Shown here in pieces: positions 21,189 to 35,315 of a stretch of DNA of 64,000 bases (position 1 is the stretch's first letter; every line of letters starts with the position of its first letter). Source of the DNA: Cafeteria roenbergensis (taxonomy: Eukaryota > Sar > Bigyra > Bicosoecida > Cafeteriaceae). Under the pieces are notes generated by a model, which was not told the DNA's origin, made no database searches, and was given only the letters and a program-made list of their open reading frames with translations. The stretch is from the NCBI GenBank assembly GCA_008330645.1, contig VLTN01000023.1, positions 372,001-436,000 on the forward strand, in the 5' to 3' direction. The translations under genes were made by a program, and so were the position numbers.

Positions 21189-22676
21189 GCTCGAGGCTTC
21201 GCCGCGCAGCATCTTGGCCGAGCTGCTTGCCAGGGTCTTGAGTGTCGTGTTGAGGCAGCAGCTGCCGCACCCCTCCCTTTGCTGAACCGAATAGAGGCGC
21301 GAGCGGCCCCCCTTTGCGCAGCGCTGCTGCCTGAAGTACTTGCCAAGCAACAGCTGGGGCGCATTCGAAATTGACGCCGCGCAAAGCGGCGCTGCTGGAG
21401 GCTCAGCTTGAACGAGGGTGCTTTTCGAGTGCTGCGTGTGCGAGGTGCAAGGCACGATGCGCCGGGTCCACAGGTCGCGAAACCCAAACTGCGGCCATAG
21501 CCAAGGAGAAGCAACGCGCAATCGCAAAGGGTTGCTTATGCGCTGGAGGAGAAGTGTCAGCACCGAGAGCCGCGGCGGACCGGCGCGGGAGGCCGAATCC
21601 AAACGTCTCAAGGTGCCGGGTTGGCCGCGGCACGCCGAAGCAGCCGCAGGCTGACCCCCCATCACCCAAACGAGTGGCGGGTTTAGTGTGTGCCCAGTTA
21701 ATTCACGGTGGGCGGTCAGAACAGCCGCCCGCACGTGCTCAATCGGGGCAAGGCGCGCGAGGAGCGCACAACGCCGAAGCGAAGAAGAGCTCACGGGCAG
21801 AACGGTGGGACTTGCCTAGGCTCCGCCAGAGGATGGCGCTGAAAGTTGTGGCGGGTGGCACGCGACAGGCGCCCCTCGCGCGCAGAGGGCGAGTGTGGAC
21901 GACTGAGGGCGGCCGTCACGTGGCGGACCGCTCTGCCGCGTTGGCCGATCGCAAGCTGGCCTTCAAGCCGAAGCCCCGGGGCGCCAACTGCGCTGGCCTG
22001 GGTGCGCTCCAGTCAACCACAAACCGAAAACCCTTGCCACTTTCCGGGCATAACTCGGTGCACGCGGTCAGGGGCTGTGCAGCGGGGCCATGCGCACTTG
22101 CGTGCCCCTCGGAGTCTTGCCATCGTGCAGGACAGGCTTCCTCCGCCGTGCCGAGTGCTTGTGGGTTGTGCTTGCTCCCAACGCGAAATGCGCGCGCGAC
22201 TCGGACGGACAGTGTTCGTGACGATGGCAAAGCCCAGCGGGAACGGAACGGGAATGGGGGCAGCGCTGAGCGTCAACCGTCGGGCGCACACACCGCCAGC
22301 CAGGGCAGAGCGCTGCCAGCGCGGACCAATAGGGCCAGGCGGCTGGCCCCGACAGCACCGAAGGAGCGAAGGAGCGCGCTGCGACAGCACGGCCAGTTCC
22401 CTGCTTCGACAGACATTGCTGCGTGAGCCGCTGCCTCTGGCATCAGATTCAAGGTGAGTCTCGGCGAGTGCGGCGTCACCAGCCGTCGCATTCGAAACTG
22501 ACTGCGCCTTGCTGCCCGGAGAGAGCGGGGGCGCCTGTCCTGGGACCGCCAAGCGCAATGGTGTGCGCCGGGATCTCCTGGGCGCTGCGTTGCGAGCCCC
22601 TAGCCCTTGTGGATGCCGGCCCGAACCACGTTGCGCAGGAATCGTCTCGCCAGGCACAGAGCCGCCGTCTGCCGCC
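21189..22676. other. longest gene-free stretch (about 1.5 kb)
   Basis: Lies between the desaturase end and the GTPase start, both on the plus strand. All frames here have the biased composition of non-coding GC-rich DNA. A strong donor-like site (AAG|GTGAGT, donor GT at 22454) with possible acceptors before 22677 suggests a 5' UTR intron of the GTPase gene. No tRNA or repeat was recognised. Confidence 0.45.
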
Positions 22677-24901
22677 ATGGCCCAAGTCCCGACTTCGGCG
22701 GCAGGCGCTCGAAATCGTGGGCCTATGTTGGCCCACGATGATTCGGCCGCCGGCAACGGCACCCACGCCGGCGGTGCACCGGACAGCGGCGCAGCTGACC
22801 AAGCCGCCGCGGCCGCGCTGTTCTTCCTCAGAGACCGTGCTGCGTCCGTTGACCTGGGCATGATGAGCAGGCAGCTCGCAGCCGAAGCGTCTGGGCCGGG
22901 GTCTTCTGGGCCGTGCTCTCCCGCCCGCGCGCCTTCCCGCGGCAGATCGCCGGGGCTGGGCCCAGCCGACGCCCTCTGCATGGCCCCGTTCGGCAACCCT
23001 GCCCCACTGACCAGCGCGGACATGACCCTTCCCGTCGGGTTTGCATCGGCTGGCAACGCCTGTCACCTCGCCCGGCCCCGTCCGCCCTCGCCGCTGCGCG
23101 ACGGCGGCGATCGAGATCGGACTGCCTCTGCCTCGCCTCACTGTCCGTCGCCCGCCCTTCACATGGACCTGGGCCTGGACGCGGCAGCGGCATCCCCCGC
23201 CGCCCCCCAAGCAGCACCGTCTCCTCCCGCCCTTTCCGCCAGCAGGGCTCCCCAGTCGCCCGTCAGGAAGCAACGGAGCGCTCCGGAGGCGGCGCCGCTC
23301 GACGCGCAGGCCAAGGACGCGATCGCACGAAAGGCTGCCAAGCGATACTGGCAGCGCCAGGGCGGCGCGGCCGCGCATGGTGGAAGCTCTGCCGCATCGT
23401 CGGAAGGGTTTGCAGTTGCTGCCGGGCAGGGGGCCTCGGTTGTCGCTGGCGGGGCCCCTGCGTCGGCGGAGGCGGATCCGAGCGACGAAGGCGTGGCTCG
23501 CTGGAAGGATCCCGCAAGCGAGCAACCAGTCGGTGGCCCAAGCCGGGAGGTGACGCTGGGTGGGGCGCAGGCGGCGGAGGCGGTGGCGGAGGAAGCCGCC
23601 GCCGCGACCGATGACGAGGAGTGGGCTGCCAGGGAGCTTGGGACGGGCGTGCTGCGCCCGACTGCCCGGGCTGTCAGGCTCCCTGCAGAGGTGGAAGAGG
23701 GTCCGGTGGAGTACAAGCTGAAGCTGGTCCGGCCGGCTGCGGAGCGCGTCCGGCACCTCGGCACGCAGATGCGTTGGCGCCTTCGAAACGGGGGCGGCGT
23801 AATGGAATACAAGCTTGGATACGAGGACGACGGCTACCCGCGAGGGGTGTCGCCTGCCCACATGGCCGCGACGCTCCGCGTCATTGTGGGCATGGCAAGG
23901 GCGCAGGGCGCGACGACGTCCGTGGACCCTGCCGCCGTGCTGGAAGGTTGGGGCCCGTCAGCGCACGAAGCCCGGAAGACAGCCGGCGCCCGCCTGGCCA
24001 TCGAGGCTGCCTGGGGCCACGGCAAGGACGTTGGCCCCGACCGCGCCCCTCGCTCGGACCCTGCCGCCTGGGTCGGCGCGGCAAGTGCCGCCGAAACGGC
24101 GGAGGCAGACGCGCCCTGCCTCCAGGCCGGGGCAGCGGGGCAGTTCGTCTGCTTGACCCTGGGCATCCGGGCCGGGCAGGAGACCGGGGCGGCGGACTGG
24201 GAGGAGCTCCGCGTGGCCGTCATCGGGGACGAGAGCTGCGGCAAGTCAACGCTGGTGAGCGTGATGACGCAAGGGGGTCTGGACGACGGCTGCGGCCTGA
24301 AGCGCATTCAGGTGTTCAGGCACTTCCACGAGGTCGAGGCCGGCAGGACGTCGGCCATCAGCGAGCAGATTCTCGGCTTCGACCGCGCTGGGAGGGTCGT
24401 AGACAGCGGAGGCCGGGAGGTGGCAGCGGCTGGCGACGGGGGCGCCGCAGAGGCCGCCGCGGGGGCGGGCCATGGGTCCTCTGCAGCGGCTGGTATCCGG
24501 CGCCAGGAGCACGTCGCTCCCCCTTCGTGGGCAGAGCTGGTGGGCATGTGCCTCGGCGGCAGAGTTGTGGTCTTCTCCGACACGGGCGGCCACGAGCGGT
24601 ACGCGAAGACGGCCATGCTGGGCCTGCTGGGGCGGGCGCCCGACCTCGCTTTGTTGGTCATTGACGCGACCAAGGGCCTCACCAGGCGCGCCAAGGAGCG
24701 ACTTGGGGTGGTGCTGGCGCTGCGCCTGCCCGTGGTGGTTGTCATCACCAAGAGCGACGCTGTTCCTGTCGGAAGGGTCCGCCGCGTCGCCTCCAGCATG
24801 CTCCGGCTGATGCGGTCCCACGGCGTGGAGCGGCGTGCTCACTTTGTGGACGGGACGGCACCAGACGCGCGGCCTCAGGACGGTGCGGGCATGCCGCTCA
24901 C

Positions 24902-24940
<39 letters not shown>

Positions 24941-26693
24941 AGGCCAAGGCCGATCCTCCCCGGGCACAGCCGCGGAGGATGGCGAGGGCAGCAGCCCGCG
25001 CAGGCGCGACTCAGCGGACGCGCGGGGCGACCAGGCCGGGCTGGGGGAGCCACTCGCCTGTCCCTCGGCAGTCGTGGCGCCATCGTTCTCCACCGGCAGC
25101 GCCGAGTCGTTTGGGTCGGCCCGCGTGGACCGTCCACGGCGGGGGATCAACTCTGCCGCAGACGCAAGGGCGGTCGTCGCCGCCGCGGCTGCCACTATGC
25201 CAGGGTCGGCTGAGGCTGCGGCAGGGGAGGCTTCGGGCGAACGGATCGCCGCGCGGTTTCGCGAGAACGCGTCGGCGGTTGTGCCCGTCATTGCCGCGTC
25301 AAGCGTTACGGGGGCGGGCCTGCGAACCCTCCGGTCGTTCCTGCGAGCTGCGCGGCGTCAGCCTGGGTGGGCGGCCGCTGCCAAAGGCCGGAGCACTGTC
25401 CTGCTCAACGCGGCCTGGGACGTGGCCAGCGTGAAGCGCGGGCTTGTTGTGAGCGGAGTGGTGGTTTCGGGGCGGGTGGTCGTCGGGGACGAGCTCGTTC
25501 TAGGCCCTGACGGCCTGGGACGATTTACCCCCGCTCGCGTGTCGTCGATTCAGAGCCTCCGGCGGCCGGTCGCGGCCGTGGAGGCCGGCCGCTCCGCGTC
25601 CTTTGCTCTCGAGGCGCAAGTTGCGCAGGGCGGGGAAGCCGCCCGCGCTGCTGCTGGCGCAGCGGCTGAGGGTGCTGCTGGCCCAGCAGCGACGCACCAC
25701 CGAAGAGCAACGGCGCCAGACCCTCCCGCCGCAGCGGCGGCAGCGGCAGCAGCAGCGCTTGCCCGCGCGCAGGAAGAAGCCGCTGCTGCAGCGGCGATGG
25801 ACGAGCTGGATGGCATGGGCATGGGGCTGCTGGGCGCAGACTCTGACGAGGACTCCGACGAGGACTCCGATGGGGACTCGAAGGGCGAGTGCCGAGCTGA
25901 GGGCCCTGGCGACGACGGCGGCATTGGCGGCTCCAGGGAAGAGTCCTCTGCCGCATCGGCGGTCGCAGCGCCCGCGCCTGCCGGGGCAGAAGGTGCCGCA
26001 AGGCAGGGCAGGCCCCTCCACCGCGAGGCCTACCGCCGAGGCATGGTGCTAGCCTCCCCGCTGCTTCACCCCAGGGCGATGCGCCGCTTTGAGGCCGAGC
26101 TGGTCGTGCTTCGCCACCCGACTGCGCTGCGGCCGGGGGCCAACGTGGCCGTCTTCGTGCGCACCATCAGGCAAAACGCTGTTGTGGAGGCCCTCGAGCC
26201 CATTGTGGACGAGCCGGGCCACGGCTCCGTCCTGGGAGCCGTGCCGGAGCACGGCGGGGGCGCTGCCAGCGGCCAGGCGGCCGCCGGGGGCCTGGCCATC
26301 GACGGCGACCTCAGCCTCTCGTCAGCCGTGATGCCCTCCTCAAGGTCAGTGTCAGCGCCCCAGAGCGGCTCGTCTGCTGACGCGGTGTCGCGGGCTCGAA
26401 GCGAGGCCTTCAGGCGAAGACTCCGCATGGGAGCGCGGACGGGCGACCGGTGCACGGTGCGGCTCCGCTGGCAGCACCACCCAGAGTACGTCACAGTGGG
26501 AGCTGCCATCCTCATCCGTGAGGGCCGCATCCGGGCCATCGGCCGCGTCACCGCCGTGGGGGGCGCTGCCGGCGTCAAGACCGCCCCCCCTCACCGCCAC
26601 ACGCCGTTTGCGCAGCTCCCCGATGCCACGGCCCCGGCGCGGCGGCCGCTTGGGCTTTCACGCCGCGCCAGCATCAACGTTGTGGACGACTAG
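22677..26693 (+). CDS. GTPBP1/GTPBP2-like translational GTPase with long insertions
   Basis: Single exon, 1338 residues, about twice the length of animal GTPBP1/2. The ATG at 22677 has a perfect Kozak-type context (GCCGCCATGG). The N-terminal 340 residues are disordered. A conserved block (EYKLKLVRP...LGTQMRWRL...YKLGYEDDG) precedes the G domain, as in GTPBP1/2. Signatures: G1 GDESCGKST from residue 517, switch I RTSAIS, G3 DTGGHE from 635, G4 TKSD from 691 (Thr in place of the usual Asn, as in this family). Poly-Gly and Ala/Asp-rich insertions split the later part, then beta-barrel domains resembling EF-Tu domains II and III follow (WDVASVKRGLVVSGVVVSG, FEAELVVLRHP, GDRCTVRLRW). GTPBP1/2 act in ribosome rescue and mRNA quality control; the role here is inferred from homology. 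Confidence 0.88.
24903..24945 (+). repeat. GGC repeat encoding poly-Gly
   Basis: A GGC-dominated simple repeat encoding about 14 consecutive Gly in the GTPBP-like protein, between the G4 motif and a Ser-rich insertion. Confidence 0.85.
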
Positions 26694-28518: not shown

Positions 28519-30708
28519 TCAGCTGCGACGCAAGCGCACCGTTCGCGCCTCGCTGAGCGTCGGCGCTTGGCCCCGCCCAATGAGGAAGCTCAGCACCGCC
28601 CCAATGTTTCGGCAGTCGTCCAGCCCGCTGTGGTGGCGGCCTCGCTGGGGCAGCCCCGCGAACTTGAGCATGCTCGGCATCCCCCGCGCTGCAGCCGCGC
28701 CGTGCCTGCCCGCAACGGTGCGCTTGATGTTGATCCAGCTGCGCATCAGCTGCGGGACCGGCGCAGCGGGGCTGGCCGCGGCTTGCGCAGGCAGCATCGT
28801 CTTGATGTCCCAGTCGCCGCAGGTGACCAGCACCGCAGTGCCGGGCCTGCGCAGGCGCGTCCGCGACGTTCCAGCAGAGCTGGTGCCGCTCACTGCTCCC
28901 TCCCCGCTGAAGGACCAGTCGAAGCTCGCGGCGGGGCTCATGCTGTCCTCGGGCGCACCAGGACCGGCGCCGGCGGGCTCCGCGCTGCTCGCTGCGCCCC
29001 CTACCGCCGGCGTCCACCCCTGCTCGGAAACCCACGCCTCCCAGGCCGCGCAGGCCTCGGGCCACGCCGGCGCGGCGTCAACGGTCGGCTGCTCGATCCC
29101 AGTCAGCTCGGTGCAAAACTCGGACAGACGCGGGTGGTGCAGTGGCCGCACGTAGCTTCGGAACTCAGACAGCACTGCTCCAGTGCGCGCGTCGAGGGCC
29201 ACGCTGGGAAGCTCGATCACCTCCTGCGGCGAAAGGCGCCCCCCCCGCACGCAGGTGGCTTCGAAGTCCAGCACAATGTACACGTCCGGAAACCGGCCCG
29301 CCGAGCCTGCGGCAGAGCACTCGCCAGGGCCGGCAGAGCTGGCAGGGCCAGCGCCTCCCCGGGCGGCATCTCCGGGACCGTCGCTCGCCGCCCGGCGCGC
29401 GCCTGGGGCCCCTCGTCGTTTGCGGGCAGGCCTGGCGGCACCGCCTTTGTCGCCGCCAGCGTCGCTGGCAGCGGTGGCGGAGGAGGCGGCCGCCGCCCTC
29501 GCCCCCGCCCGCCGGGACGCAGCAGCCTCCATCGCGGCCGTCACGGCCTCTGCCGGGGCGCCTTTCCCTGGCGAAAGTCCGACGGGAAGCGGCCACCCGC
29601 GTCTCCATACCACTGCATCGTCGCTGCGGCGGCGAACTGACGAGAGCAACCACCACGGAAGCCGCCACCCGTCCTCCTCGGCAGACCCTGCCCCTGACGC
29701 GGCGACTTCGGCAGCTGCAGCTGAGCCACGGCTGCTGCCGCTGCCGCCCACGCTGCCGCTGGCCGGAGCTGATGCAGAAGCAGGCACCAGCGGGCGTGCG
29801 GCGGCTGCCGCAGCGGCCAGTTTCTCGGGCGGCACCTCCGAGCCAGCTGGCAGGTCCGCCAGAACGGCGTCCCCGGCCGCCGCTGCAGCTGGGGGCAGGC
29901 CGGCCGAGAGCGCGACTGAGTTGTCGCTCAGCCACACGCTTGCGCCCGCAGCCAGCGCCAGGGGGACATCGAGGTCGATGAGGGCGACCGCCGAGCCACG
30001 CACGCCGCTGCGCGCCTCGCCAACAGGTGCCGTGGCGAAGTGGACGTGACGCCTGGTCATTCGCGAGAGCCCGCTGCCCGGGCGAAGCACGAGGGGCAGC
30101 ACGCCTGCGCTGGTGCCGTGGTAGCAGATGGGCAGCTCAGCCGCCGACGCGACTGCCCGGAGCATGCTGCTGTCGTCGATGTGCTGCGAACAGGAGTCAT
30201 CGCATGGCGTCGCGGCGGCAGGCGAGCCCTTCGAACGCTGCGAGCGCGCCTGCAACTCGGCTGCCGCCGGAATCGAGTTTTCGCCTCACCTTGATGCTGT
30301 GGCCCTGATTCGCCCGAACCATGAGCACCCCGTCCCGGGTCTCGAGGGTGTAGCGACTCTTTTCGTCTCTTTCCACCGTCTGCACACCCCAAACTTGGCA
30401 AGCGCAAAGGAATGTCGCGGACTGGAAATTGCCGGCCCTGCCAGCTCCAATGTCGATCAGCGCTTTCCTCCCCCGAACGCAAGACGGGCGTGCGCCACAC
30501 TCACGGTACGGACATCGCGCACAGTAGCTCCGAGTTTGGCCATGGACGGGACGGCCAGGAGGGCCTCGACGACGGCAAAGCCGTCTTTGGTCAGGGCCAA
30601 GCCCACTGCCGCAGCCCTGTGCCGCAAGATAGAGCTCATGCACTTGCTCACCCGCACGAAGCGACTGTCTGGGCGCCGCCTACCAGACTGCCGATGTGCA
30701 TCAGACAT
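28519..30708 (-). CDS. fusion of tRNA 2'-phosphotransferase (Tpt1/KptA) and ERI1-like 3'-5' exoribonuclease
   Basis: Three exons (30708-30505, 30379-30290, 30183-28519; introns 125 and 106 bp, all phase 0, GTGAG...GCAG) give 652 residues. Residues about 15-190 are a Tpt1/KptA domain: SSILRHRAAAVGLAL (Arg29, His30), VRANQGHSIK (Arg90), CYHGTS, and GLSRMTRRHVHF. These cover the catalytic Arg-His-Arg-Arg set that moves a splice-junction 2'-phosphate from tRNA to NAD. A Ser/Ala-rich linker of about 200 residues follows. Residues about 400-640 form an ERI1/ERI3-type DEDDh nuclease: VLDFEATC (Asp404, Glu406), GDWDIK (about 555), HSGLDDCRNIG (about 615). Such nucleases trim 3' ends of 5.8S rRNA, histone mRNA or small RNAs. 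Both active sites look intact. The linker is open without any GTGAG-type intron, and no stop or promoter-like gap separates the halves, so one polypeptide is the simplest reading. Confidence 0.88.
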
Positions 30709-30956: not shown

Positions 30957-32132
30957 TCACTCCTTGCGCACGTAGACGCCGAGGTCGGCGCACATGCGCA
31001 CAAACTGATCGCGGTCCACCTCGCCAGACGCGTCCAGGGCCTTGAGCATGGCCTCGGCGTTGAGCGGGCTGAAGTCGTTTTGGCCCACACGCGCCAAGAG
31101 CCGGCTCGCGGCGGTGAAAAGGCTAGCCTTGGTAATTTTGCCCGTTTCGCCGTCGGCGAGGTGAGAAAACATCTCGGTGGGGACCTCCTCGTCGTCCTTG
31201 CCAAGGAACACAATGGCCGCAAGCTCAAGCCACTCGAACAGCTCCAGCTCTCCGTCGCCATTCACGTCGAACCTCGCAACGAGGTTCGCACAGTCCTGGT
31301 CGCTCGGTCGCTGCGCTCGCACACGTTGACAAGTCCACCAAAATGCGACAGCTAGCCAGCCTTCGGCCGGATGGGGCGAACACAGCAAACTGCCCCTCCA
31401 CACGCATGTGAAGCACCTTGCAATGCTGAACGCCTTTAAAGTCTCACCATACCGCAGAGCTGCAGCCCGGACTTGACCTCGCTCGTGCTGATGGCGCCGG
31501 AGCCGTCGGTGTCAAGCATGGCAAACGCTGCGGCGCGCGGTCGCCAGACGCCAAAGCAGGGGCAGCATGCCGCGTACGGCCAGCGTGGGTGCTGTGGCCG
31601 GGCTGAGTCGGACGTGCGGCTGCCAAGCCGACCAAGCGGGCTGAGGCCGCGGCGCGAAAAGCAACTGGTTTCGCGCGCGCGTGCCTCCCGCCGGGCCTCG
31701 ACGCCACCCCAAGTCCCAACCTTCCACTCGGCTGTCACCCAAGCCCTAGGCTGTCAAGGCCCCGTGATCTGGTGGAAGCAACACAGCGGAGGGGGTGGGG
31801 TGGTGCATCATTTCGTGTGGGCTCACTCTCTGTGAATTCAGCCTTCTGCGAACGCCAGACGCGGATCGCGCACACGGAGCGGCCCAGGACGCAATTGCTG
31901 AGGCCTTGTCTGACGCGGACGACAAGGAAGCCCATCATGGACGGGAGCTGCTGACCTGCCCACACCGTTGGGCTTTTCCCGGGCGCAGACGCTGGCAGCG
32001 TGCTCCTGACCCGGGCGAGAGGGGCTGGCGCATTTACGCACCCGGAGCGCGGCAGCTGGGCAAGGAATCACTGAGGTCCGTGCTCACCTGGCTGCTGGTC
32101 AGCTTGGCGCGCATGTTGCGGTCGGTTGCCAT
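30957..32132 (-). CDS. calmodulin/centrin-like EF-hand protein with a 19-nt microexon
   Basis: Four exons, 32132-32088, 31845-31827, 31527-31448 and 31310-30957, with introns of 242, 299 and 137 bp, give 165 residues. The 19-nt second exon encodes KAEFTE plus one base and is needed to join LTSSQ to TFAMLDTDGSGAIS in frame; the result LTSSQKAEFTETFAMLDTDG closely follows the calmodulin/centrin entry helix. EF-hand 1 (DTDGSGAISTSE) and EF-hand 2 (DVNGDGELELFE) keep their Ca-binding residues. EF-hands 3 (ADGETGKITKAS) and 4 (DASGEVDRDQF) are degenerate. A Ca2+ sensor is likely; the exact subfamily is not clear. Confidence 0.83.
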
Positions 32133-32534: not shown

Positions 32535-35315
32535 ATGTCGCAACACACTCTCGGAGAAGGATGGGGGGCGGTGTTTGAGCCCACCCAGAGCAAGTACTAC
32601 TACACGCAAGGCACGTCGACTCAGTGGGAGTGGCCGGAGGACGACTTGTGAGCCCCTCGCAACGCTGGCGCGTGGCACGGCGCACACAAGCATGCCACCA
32701 TATTTTTTTTTTGGGGGGGGGGAAGGTGGAGGGGGGCCGATGGGGCGGCGGCTGGTCGGTGACTGCGCGGCTGTGCGCACGGCCAACCCGTTCTGCACCC
32801 CGGATAGATCCCGCTGTTCAGCCGCCGCTCGCCGGCCGGTTGGCGGAGCCTTGAGCGAGGTCAGCTTTGCCTGCCTTGGCCCTCCATCCCATGACCTTGC
32901 TAGTTTGCTCATTCGCCCGTTCGGCGCAGGCCCAAGCCAGACACCCCTGCCGGAGACTGGACCTGCCACACGCACGAAGGCAAGGCCTACTACTACAACG
33001 CCAAAACCCAAGTCACCGAGTGGCAGCCCCCTCCTGAGGTAGTCGACGCGTGGGTGGCCGCGCAGGCGGCCGCCCCCGCAGCTTCCGGGGCTTCTGCCGC
33101 AGCGGTGACCGAGAGCGAACACGAGTCACCGGCGGAGGCCGCTGAGGCTCCCCCCTCGGCTGAGTCCGCGGCCGCGGACTCAGCCGAGGTCGATGCTCCA
33201 GCTGACCCTGCCATTGAGCCAGCAGCCACAGTCGCCCCGGCAGCTGAAGCTGCTGCACCAGCAGAGGCTGCCGGACCAGCAGAAGCTGGCGATGGCGAAG
33301 TGGCGCCGCAGGCCGACGCCGCAGCGTCCGGGGCTGGGGAGGGCACCGGCCTCGAGGCAGAGAGCGCGCCCGATGCAGCGGCGGCGGACGGCACCGAGCC
33401 TGCGCCCGCCGCGGCAGCCTCGCCTCTGGCTGGCGTGAAAGGCGCCCCGGCCGAGGTGTTGGCCCTTTGGAAGTCTCTCTTGGGCGTCCTGAAGGAGGAC
33501 GCCGACGAGATTGTGACCAACCGGCGCAAGAAGTTCGAGCGATTGAGGAAGATCCGCGCCAAGAAGAGCCGGGAGGAGAAGGTGCGTCTGGAGCGCGAAG
33601 CCGCCGAGGCTGCAGAGGAGGAGGCCCTCATCCGGGCAGAGGAGCTGCGCCTGAGCCAGCTCACGCTGATGGTCATGACCAAGCTGGACGACCCCCCGCC
33701 GGTCGAGCGCAAGTACATCGCTGATGACATCAGCGACTTCATCAACCTGGAGCGGAAGGGCAACGCCCTGTCCACCATGGGCATCGGGCGGCGCAGCGAG
33801 ACGACGGCGTCCAAGGCTCTCTCGTGGAAGAACGAAGTCCTCGCCATGCCGCTGACCCACATCCCCAAGTCGGCCACAGAGCTCTGGGCGTCAGCGATCC
33901 AGTGCTTCCGCAACATCACTGGCTTCATGGGCGACCGCAGCTCGAACAAGCAGGCAGGCGGGCACGCCGAGAAGCTGCTGAAGATGCTGTCTGGCTCGGC
34001 CGCCGAGCTGCGCGACGAAGCGTACATGCAGCTGATGAAGCAGACAACGAACAACGAGTCGGACATTGACGGCTCCGAGCTTCGCGGCTGGCAGCTCTTC
34101 ACGATCCTTACGGGCTCGTTCCCCCCGAGTGACGACCTTCTGGAGTACGTGAACTGGTACTTCAAGGAGGGCGCCGACAAGCACAGCCCCCGGGCCAGCG
34201 AGATGGAGCCGCCAGGCATCCATGAGCACGCCGAGGCGTGCATCGCGCGGTTGGCCAAGCTGCGGACCATGGCCCCCAGGAAGGAGGTCGCTCCCACGAT
34301 GGAGGTGGAGGCGACCAAGGACCTGCTGCCCGTGATGGTGCGGGTCTACTTCCTGGACGGCACGTTCGAGATGCTGCCCGCCACGTCCCTGACGACTGCC
34401 ACGGACATGCGCAACATGTTGCGCGAGTTGCTCGGAATCGAGCCGGTGAACATGTCCGGCTTTGGCATCTTCGATATCGACAGCGAGGGCCACGAGCGGT
34501 ACCTGGAGCCCACAGAGCGAATCCTCGACGTGGTCGCCTACTGGCTTCGTCTGTACGGGGACCTTCTCCAGCGCGACAAGAAGCGGGTGGAGGAGTTCTT
34601 GCCCAACCGCTTCGTGTTCAAGGTGAAGCAGTACTACTCGCTTGTGCACACTCCGAAGCACGATTCCGCGGCTGAGCGCCTCCTCTATACGCAGGCAGTG
34701 TACGACGTGGTCAAGGACCGCTACCCGTGCCTGGACGAGGACTGCGTGAAGCTTGGCGCCATCCAGCGCCAGGCGGAGGCCCCGCACACGCCCATTTCGC
34801 TGGAGATGGCGCCACGGTACCTGAAGGAGGGCATTTGCAAGAACCCAAAGCTCTCGGACTTCGTCGCCGAGCTCAACAAGCAGCTCGCCGACCACGCGGG
34901 AAAAGACCCGGTGAGCTGCATGCGCGAGTACCTCAAGGAGGTCAAGTCGTGGAAGATCTATGGCAGCTCCTTCTTCTGGCTCGAGCCAGTGGACCGCGGG
35001 ACCTTTGGCGACAAGGTGTTCGCTGCCGTCAACCCGCGCGGCGTGATGTTCATCAACCCGGACACCAAGGAGAACTTCAAGACCATCCCATACAGCGAGC
35101 TCCCGCAGTGGGGCCACGCTGAAAAGTCCTTCGTCATTTTTGAGGGCTCGCTGATCAAGCAGACCAAGCACCAGTTCACGACGCGCACCGTTGGAGTGAC
35201 GGCGGAGATGAACGACTTGATTCACGGGTACGTGAACGAGAAGGTCGCCCGCCAATCGACCGCGGACGACCCTGTCGCGGCAGCGGCTGCTGCCAGCGCA
35301 GCGGGCCTCGAGTAG
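32535..35315 (+). CDS. motorless WW-MyTH4-FERM protein
   Basis: Two exons, 32535-32647 and 32930-35315 (intron 282 bp, GTGAGC...GCGCAG), give 832 residues. Two WW-like modules sit at the N-terminus: GWGAVFEPTQSKYYYTQG...WEWP (about 9-36, encoded by exon 1) and DWTCHTHEGKAYYYN...TEWQPP (about 46-72, exon 2). An Ala/Glu-rich linker and a charged helix (FERLRKIRAKKSREEKVRLE) follow. Then comes a MyTH4 domain (about 340-475; AIQCFRNITGFMGDR, LRDEAYMQLMKQT, GWQLFTIL) and a FERM domain (about 500-815; YYSLVHTPKH, LGAIQRQAE). MyTH4-FERM pairs normally form myosin or kinesin tails that bind microtubules or membrane proteins; here no motor head is present, and both flanks are accounted for by other genes. 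Confidence 0.9.
32701..32723 (+). repeat. T10/G10 homopolymer tract in an intron
   Basis: A run of about ten T followed by about ten G inside the intron of the WW-MyTH4-FERM gene. Such a run is unusual in a GC-rich, T-poor sequence and could also be a sequencing or assembly weak point. Confidence 0.8.

Follow-up and report, generated by a model that had tools for sequence, protein, structure and literature searches.

Question raised by the locus

Can a single gene of the bicosoecid Cafeteria roenbergensis encode two complete RNA enzymes, a tRNA 2'-phosphotransferase (Tpt1/KptA) and an ERI-type exonuclease, and what would such a protein do? The question arose from a sequence-only reading of the window, i.e. 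the whole stretch of 64,000 nucleotides that was analyzed (contig VLTN01000023.1, positions 372,001 to 436,000; 69.8% GC). We examined the gene model, the two domains and the linker between them, compared the protein with known systems, and surveyed the genome for other RNA-processing functions.

Gene structure and neighboring genes

The proposed layout of the gene is summarized in Table 1. Spliced translation reproduced the coordinates, exon number, motifs and frame that the sequence-only reading had assigned to it. At the edge of exon 1, the upstream PF01885 match in a six-frame search stops at window position 30502, while the downstream match starts at 30183, which is the edge of exon 3. 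Exon 2 is too short to give a match of its own in this search, and is covered by the Pfam match to the spliced protein. The first ATG of the fusion frame is at 30708; the frame is open further upstream, to 30948, and contains no second methionine there.

Table 1. Coordinates of the fusion gene, its exons and introns, and the parts of its product, in window numbering.
Feature	Position	Strand	Residues	Description
Fusion gene	30708-28519	minus	652 aa (spliced frame)	3 exons, 2 introns
Exon 1	30505..30708	minus	1-68	Contains the start codon, the beginning of the Tpt1 RNA lobe, R29 and H30 (spliced translation)
Intron 1	30380..30504	minus		125 nt; GTGAGT...GTGCAG
Exon 2	30290..30379	minus	69-98	Carries R90 and the RANQGHS motif
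Intron 2	30184..30289	minus		106 nt; GTGAGG...TTCGCAG
Exon 3	28519..30183	minus	99-652 and stop	Tpt1 NAD lobe, linker and entire ERI nuclease; single unbroken frame
Tpt1/KptA domain	29899..30663 (including both introns)	minus	16-193	PF01885, E-value=2.8e-42
Linker	29296..29880	minus	200-394	About 195 codons; 75% Ala/Gly/Pro/Ser/Arg; low-complexity
Tryptophan-rich island in linker	29533..29685	minus	265-315	EEDGWRLPWWLLSS...WRRGWPLPVGL; less low-complexity, unlike the surrounding linker
Met316	29530..29532	minus	316	Sole linker methionine; only possible ATG start within the linker for the whole nuclease
ERI-type DEDDh nuclease	28570..29283	minus	399-636	D404, E406, D557, H616, D621
Low-complexity insert in nuclease	28837..29013	minus	489-547	59 aa; from alignment

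An EF-hand-like frame (30957-31511, minus) lies directly upstream on the same strand and ends 248 nucleotides before the fusion start codon; its EF-hand matches are below the Pfam cut-offs. Elsewhere in the window, the frame at 32904-35315 (plus) has MyTH4, RA-like, central FERM and PTB-type matches, and begins with a WW match that falls below the cut-off. No motor domain was matched in this frame, and the product is a myosin-tail-like protein. The 1411-amino acid open frame at 22458-26693 (plus) possesses an EF-Tu-type GTPase domain (residues 585-961) in which long stretches of low complexity, among them a run of glycines, break up the sequence.

The Tpt1/KptA domain

Pfam analysis of the spliced protein revealed a PTS_2-RNA match of 145.2 bits (cut-off 26) covering profile positions 2-177 of 177, i.e. 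the full length of the family. The best solved relative of the N-terminal part is human TRPT1, with an E-value of 6e-23 for the whole protein and 8.4e-24 for residues 1-197 alone (PDB). The sequence was aligned with those of six KptA proteins, four from plasmids, one from a phage and one from a viral contig. All seven sequences share R29, H30, R90 and R142, and the same alignment contains the GHS and HGT motifs of the Tpt1 domain. The last of these residues, R142, we take to be the fourth member of the catalytic Arg-His-Arg-Arg tetrad. An Arg, a His and an Arg of the Tpt1 RNA lobe are described as essential in the available text of PMC6333775, and by our own assignment these would correspond to R29, H30 and R90. 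The genome (36,303,456 bases in 167 contigs) was searched in six frames, an approach which may miss short exons; PTS_2-RNA matched at two places, both within the fusion gene (exons 1 and 3).

The ERI-type nuclease domain

RNase_T was matched in two stretches of the C-terminal part, the best being residues 401-484 (E-value=2.4e-20; Pfam). The closest solved DEDDh nucleases are human ERI3 (1.1e-36, in stretches 399-488 and 548-636), ERI2 (1.1e-23) and human ERI1 (5.2e-21). In the alignment to human ERI3 the five residues listed in Table 1 occupy the DEDDh positions. Human ERI3 itself is described, in the available passages of PMC5041148, as merely a likely 3'-5' exonuclease. The families which Pfam reported for the fusion protein were PTS_2-RNA, RNase_T and, below its cut-off, HHD_RTEL1; the same scan gave no match to a SAP domain at E-values up to 1.

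Two further ERI-like genes were found in the genome, on contigs C4 and C22. Human ERI1 is clearly the best relative of the C22 copy (2.7e-22 vs 7.6e-19 for ERI3) and barely the best of the C4 copy (4.7e-10 vs 1.8e-9). Since both are closest to ERI1, the fusion gene is the only place where these six-frame searches revealed an ERI3-like copy. In the region of the nuclease core where the fusion protein has its low-complexity insert, the C4 and C22 copies bear extra residues too. A further RNase_T match, on contig C60, belongs to another gene.

The linker and the question of one gene

The fusion would be an artefact if an error in the sequence or the assembly had merged two adjacent genes of the same strand, or if a non-canonical intron lay unseen between them. 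A chance origin of the two domains is ruled out by their E-values (Pfam, PDB). The linker is GC-rich as well as low in complexity, and chance alone kept a frame of its length open in 5-16% of simulations (255 of 5000 with regional dinucleotides and 795 of 5000 with those of the linker itself). Among 1308 stretches of linker length taken from the window 299 are open, and 150 of these, real genes included, score at least as high as the linker; an open, coding-like stretch is therefore not rare here. On the other side of the balance, codon statistics prefer the fusion frame, which ranks first of six (0.04 vs -0.03 for the next) in a model trained on four genes. It also ranks first in all four leave-one-gene-out models, with a negative score in one of them (-0.05; next -0.09), and when tried on 105 control windows the method picked the correct frame in 103. 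By these statistics the low-complexity linker is weakly coding-like, its signal being small, and the tryptophan-rich island scores negative in a two-gene codon model. A 59-residue query with the island gave five weak matches elsewhere in the genome, none of them significant (best E-value=0.077), which are taken as chance; the linker showed no relative in the PDB.

The arrangement of the sequence also speaks against two genes. Scanning of the linker revealed neither an in-frame stop nor a GT[AG]AG donor, the one such donor of exon 3 (28893) being located within the nuclease insert. Since there is no stop between the domains, a separate Tpt1 mRNA would be without a stop codon; and since the linker has a single methionine, a separate nuclease gene would have nearly no room for an upstream region of its own. 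From the genomic sequence we consider the model of one fused gene highly probable and an artefact very improbable. The sequence-only reading had claimed one gene with both complete enzymes, and this is supported by the two full domains, their catalytic residues and the one open frame.

Comparison with known systems

The likeness to Tpt1/KptA/TRPT1 proteins (PF01885) extends over the whole domain, the R-H-R-R residues and both motifs. The difference is the linker and nuclease which follow Tpt1 here, whereas five named KptA genes from phage and plasmid records specify 179-218 amino acids, the size of a single domain. In a similar manner the nuclease shares the DEDDh residues and core with ERI3 and ERI1/3'hExo, human ERI3 being its best solved relative, but differs in the 59-residue insert within that core. 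KapD of Bacillus subtilis is not known to have a Tpt1 domain. It too is an ERI-like DEDDh 3'-exoribonuclease, but a bacterial one, according to the available text of PMC11736430; the same source describes a SAP domain in 3'hExo and Eri1, in place of which the fusion has an N-terminal Tpt1 domain.

Fusions of KptA to other partners are known (PMC9503650, in the part available). In the KptA-Nudix fusion of Bodo saltans virus a KptA domain is likewise joined to a second enzyme, but the predicted role of that partner is processing of the ADP-ribose product, whereas the ERI partner here is predicted to act on RNA. We inspected 94 prokaryotic and viral KptA open reading frames, comprising the best 80 of 543 confirmed relatives from species genomes and 14 viral loci, a sample which leans to bacterial KptA near the queries and in which two of the 14 viral loci repeat other records of the comparison. 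All 94 hit a stop within 189 amino acids of the match start and none runs off its locus; thus none has a nuclease behind KptA. KptA occurred in 14 phage and 34 plasmid records, and viral contigs queried with the window's own domains yielded a single, distant KptA and nothing related to ERI.

Among the matches listed in the open-access literature none describes a fusion of Tpt1 with ERI, which agrees with the earlier claim that no described protein combines the two. Two articles, PMC12524790 and PMC12622666, contain both Tpt1-family and ERI names; their titles concern depression and breast hypertrophy. Judged from prokaryotic and viral KptA and from the open-access literature, this is probably a real, undescribed pairing of two known enzymes.

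RNA-processing context in the genome

Ligation by RtcB leaves no 2'-phosphate. Since the genome contains an RtcB ligase (E-value=1.1e-160; profile search), removal of a splice-junction phosphate is not an obvious job for Tpt1 in this organism, and the initial idea that it serves tRNA or HAC1-type ligation appears doubtful. A Trl1-type ligase (PF09511), the Trl1 CPD domain (PF08302) and CNPase (profile search) gave no match in the genome; because the controls were silent too, these negatives are not counted as absence. One gene of the 2H superfamily was detected (E-value=6.1e-20, and 4e-24 in a second search), its assignment being at the superfamily level.

ARAGORN located no tRNA in the window. 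In a search for an intron-bearing tRNA-Tyr the pattern gave 2 sites vs 9 for the reversed control, and the sole tRNA-like match was, in our reading, a different tRNA. Among the best 63 of 405 candidates in the genome there are regularly spaced tandem tRNA arrays, at C47:58995-63548 (8 copies about 640 bases apart), C1:365847-372736 (9 copies about 850 bases apart) and C1:513615-516535 (7 copies about 475 bases apart).

Proposed function and alternatives

We propose, with a probability of roughly 0.45, that the gene product is a single RNA-end enzyme with two functions, in which the Tpt1 domain would clear a 2'-phosphate block and the tethered ERI domain would trim or degrade the RNA. The predicted reaction of the former is the NAD+-dependent removal of an RNA 2'-phosphate, yielding a 2'-OH and ADP-ribose cyclic phosphate, while the ERI3-like DEDDh domain would degrade or trim RNA from 3' to 5'. 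A 2'-phosphate, whether at the 3' end or internal, would stall exonucleases; with the Tpt1 domain tethered, the block would be cleared and the nuclease could go on. The likely substrates would be RNAs which have been cut by metal-independent nucleases and whose cyclic phosphate has then been converted to a 2'-phosphate, as a 2H-type phosphoesterase might do; such ends would be unfit for RtcB ligation. We infer expression as one protein, and with it both activities, their order and these substrates; the role suggested for the 2H gene is equally conditional, and it may act on another substrate.

According to the available passages of PMC6456296, a 2'-phosphate stops Xrn1, an internal 2'-phosphate protects against 3'-5' decay by PNPase (cited therein), and CNP converts RtcB-ready ends to 2'-phosphate ends which RtcB cannot join. 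From the block and the CNP data in these passages we infer that Tpt1 would clear the block and ERI would then trim or degrade. In the passages of the literature examined there is no statement on how ERI nucleases respond to a 2'-phosphate. According to the available text of PMC9458441, animals and bacteria can do without their Tpt1, which is able to ADP-ribosylate 5'-phosphate ends; the enzyme of thermophilic archaea can reverse the 2'-phosphouridine modification of tRNA. From this it follows that other jobs are possible. As a reading of the sequence, removal of a 2'-phosphate block followed by trimming, proposed at the outset, remains the best one. That the protein is a dedicated 2'-phosphate-clearing exonuclease, i.e. 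an NAD+-dependent decay or trimming enzyme which unblocks and digests 2'-phosphate RNAs, is a tentative idea and, in our view, somewhat unlikely.

Perhaps the fused protein is real and its activities are directed to different RNAs, the fusion being neutral or merely co-localizing two housekeeping RNA enzymes. The long, low-complexity linker with little sign of a fixed arrangement would be in keeping with this, as would the large inserts tolerated by the ERI copies of this genome and the loss of Tpt1 in mouse and E. coli without a reported phenotype (PMC9458441, available text). We regard it as unlikely but worth serious consideration; against it, a joint chemistry is available in the blocking of exonucleases by 2'-phosphates (PMC6456296, available passages) and the sole Tpt1 matches and sole ERI3-like copy found both sit in the fusion. 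Classical tRNA splicing, where Tpt1 would clear the junction 2'-phosphate after Trl1-like ligation and ERI would trim the tRNA or the excised intron, was suggested by the sequence-only reading and is favored by two loci with weak tRNA-intron endonuclease-like matches that fall short of the Pfam cut-off. The RtcB ligase described above makes this quite improbable; PF09511 and PF08302 gave no match, their controls being silent as well, and one tRNA-Tyr intron pattern with no convincing gene proves little.

The Tpt1 domain might, instead, ADP-ribosylate RNA 5'-phosphates and the ERI domain act on the same RNAs, so that the state of the 5' end would be coupled to 3' decay. Human TRPT1, the closest solved relative, caps 5'-phosphate RNA (PMC9458441, available text), and a 5'-phosphate stimulates KapD, a bacterial relative of the ERI nucleases (PMC11736430, available text). 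A KapD model is also among the family matches of the fusion protein, far under its cut-off (33.7 vs 169 bits). This response is known, however, for a single bacterial enzyme and nothing at the fusion locus points to it; of the explanations weighed here, coupling to the 5' end seems to us the least probable.

Significance

Bacteria, archaea and animals retain Tpt1, yet their tRNA processing leaves no 2'-phosphate junction; the enzyme is dispensable in the examples tested, and its job in these groups is open, according to the available text of PMC9458441 and PMC6333775. The occurrence in nature of a gene linking Tpt1 to a 3'-exonuclease gives a physical clue to a reaction that may accompany its own, and a single protein allows the two activities to be measured with defined 2'-phosphate RNAs. 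The interest of the finding will rise if the fusion proves to be conserved or catalytically coupled. Should the protein indeed be a 2'-phosphate-clearing exonuclease, it would mean that Tpt1 in organisms which splice with RtcB can serve RNA 3'-end decay rather than splicing.
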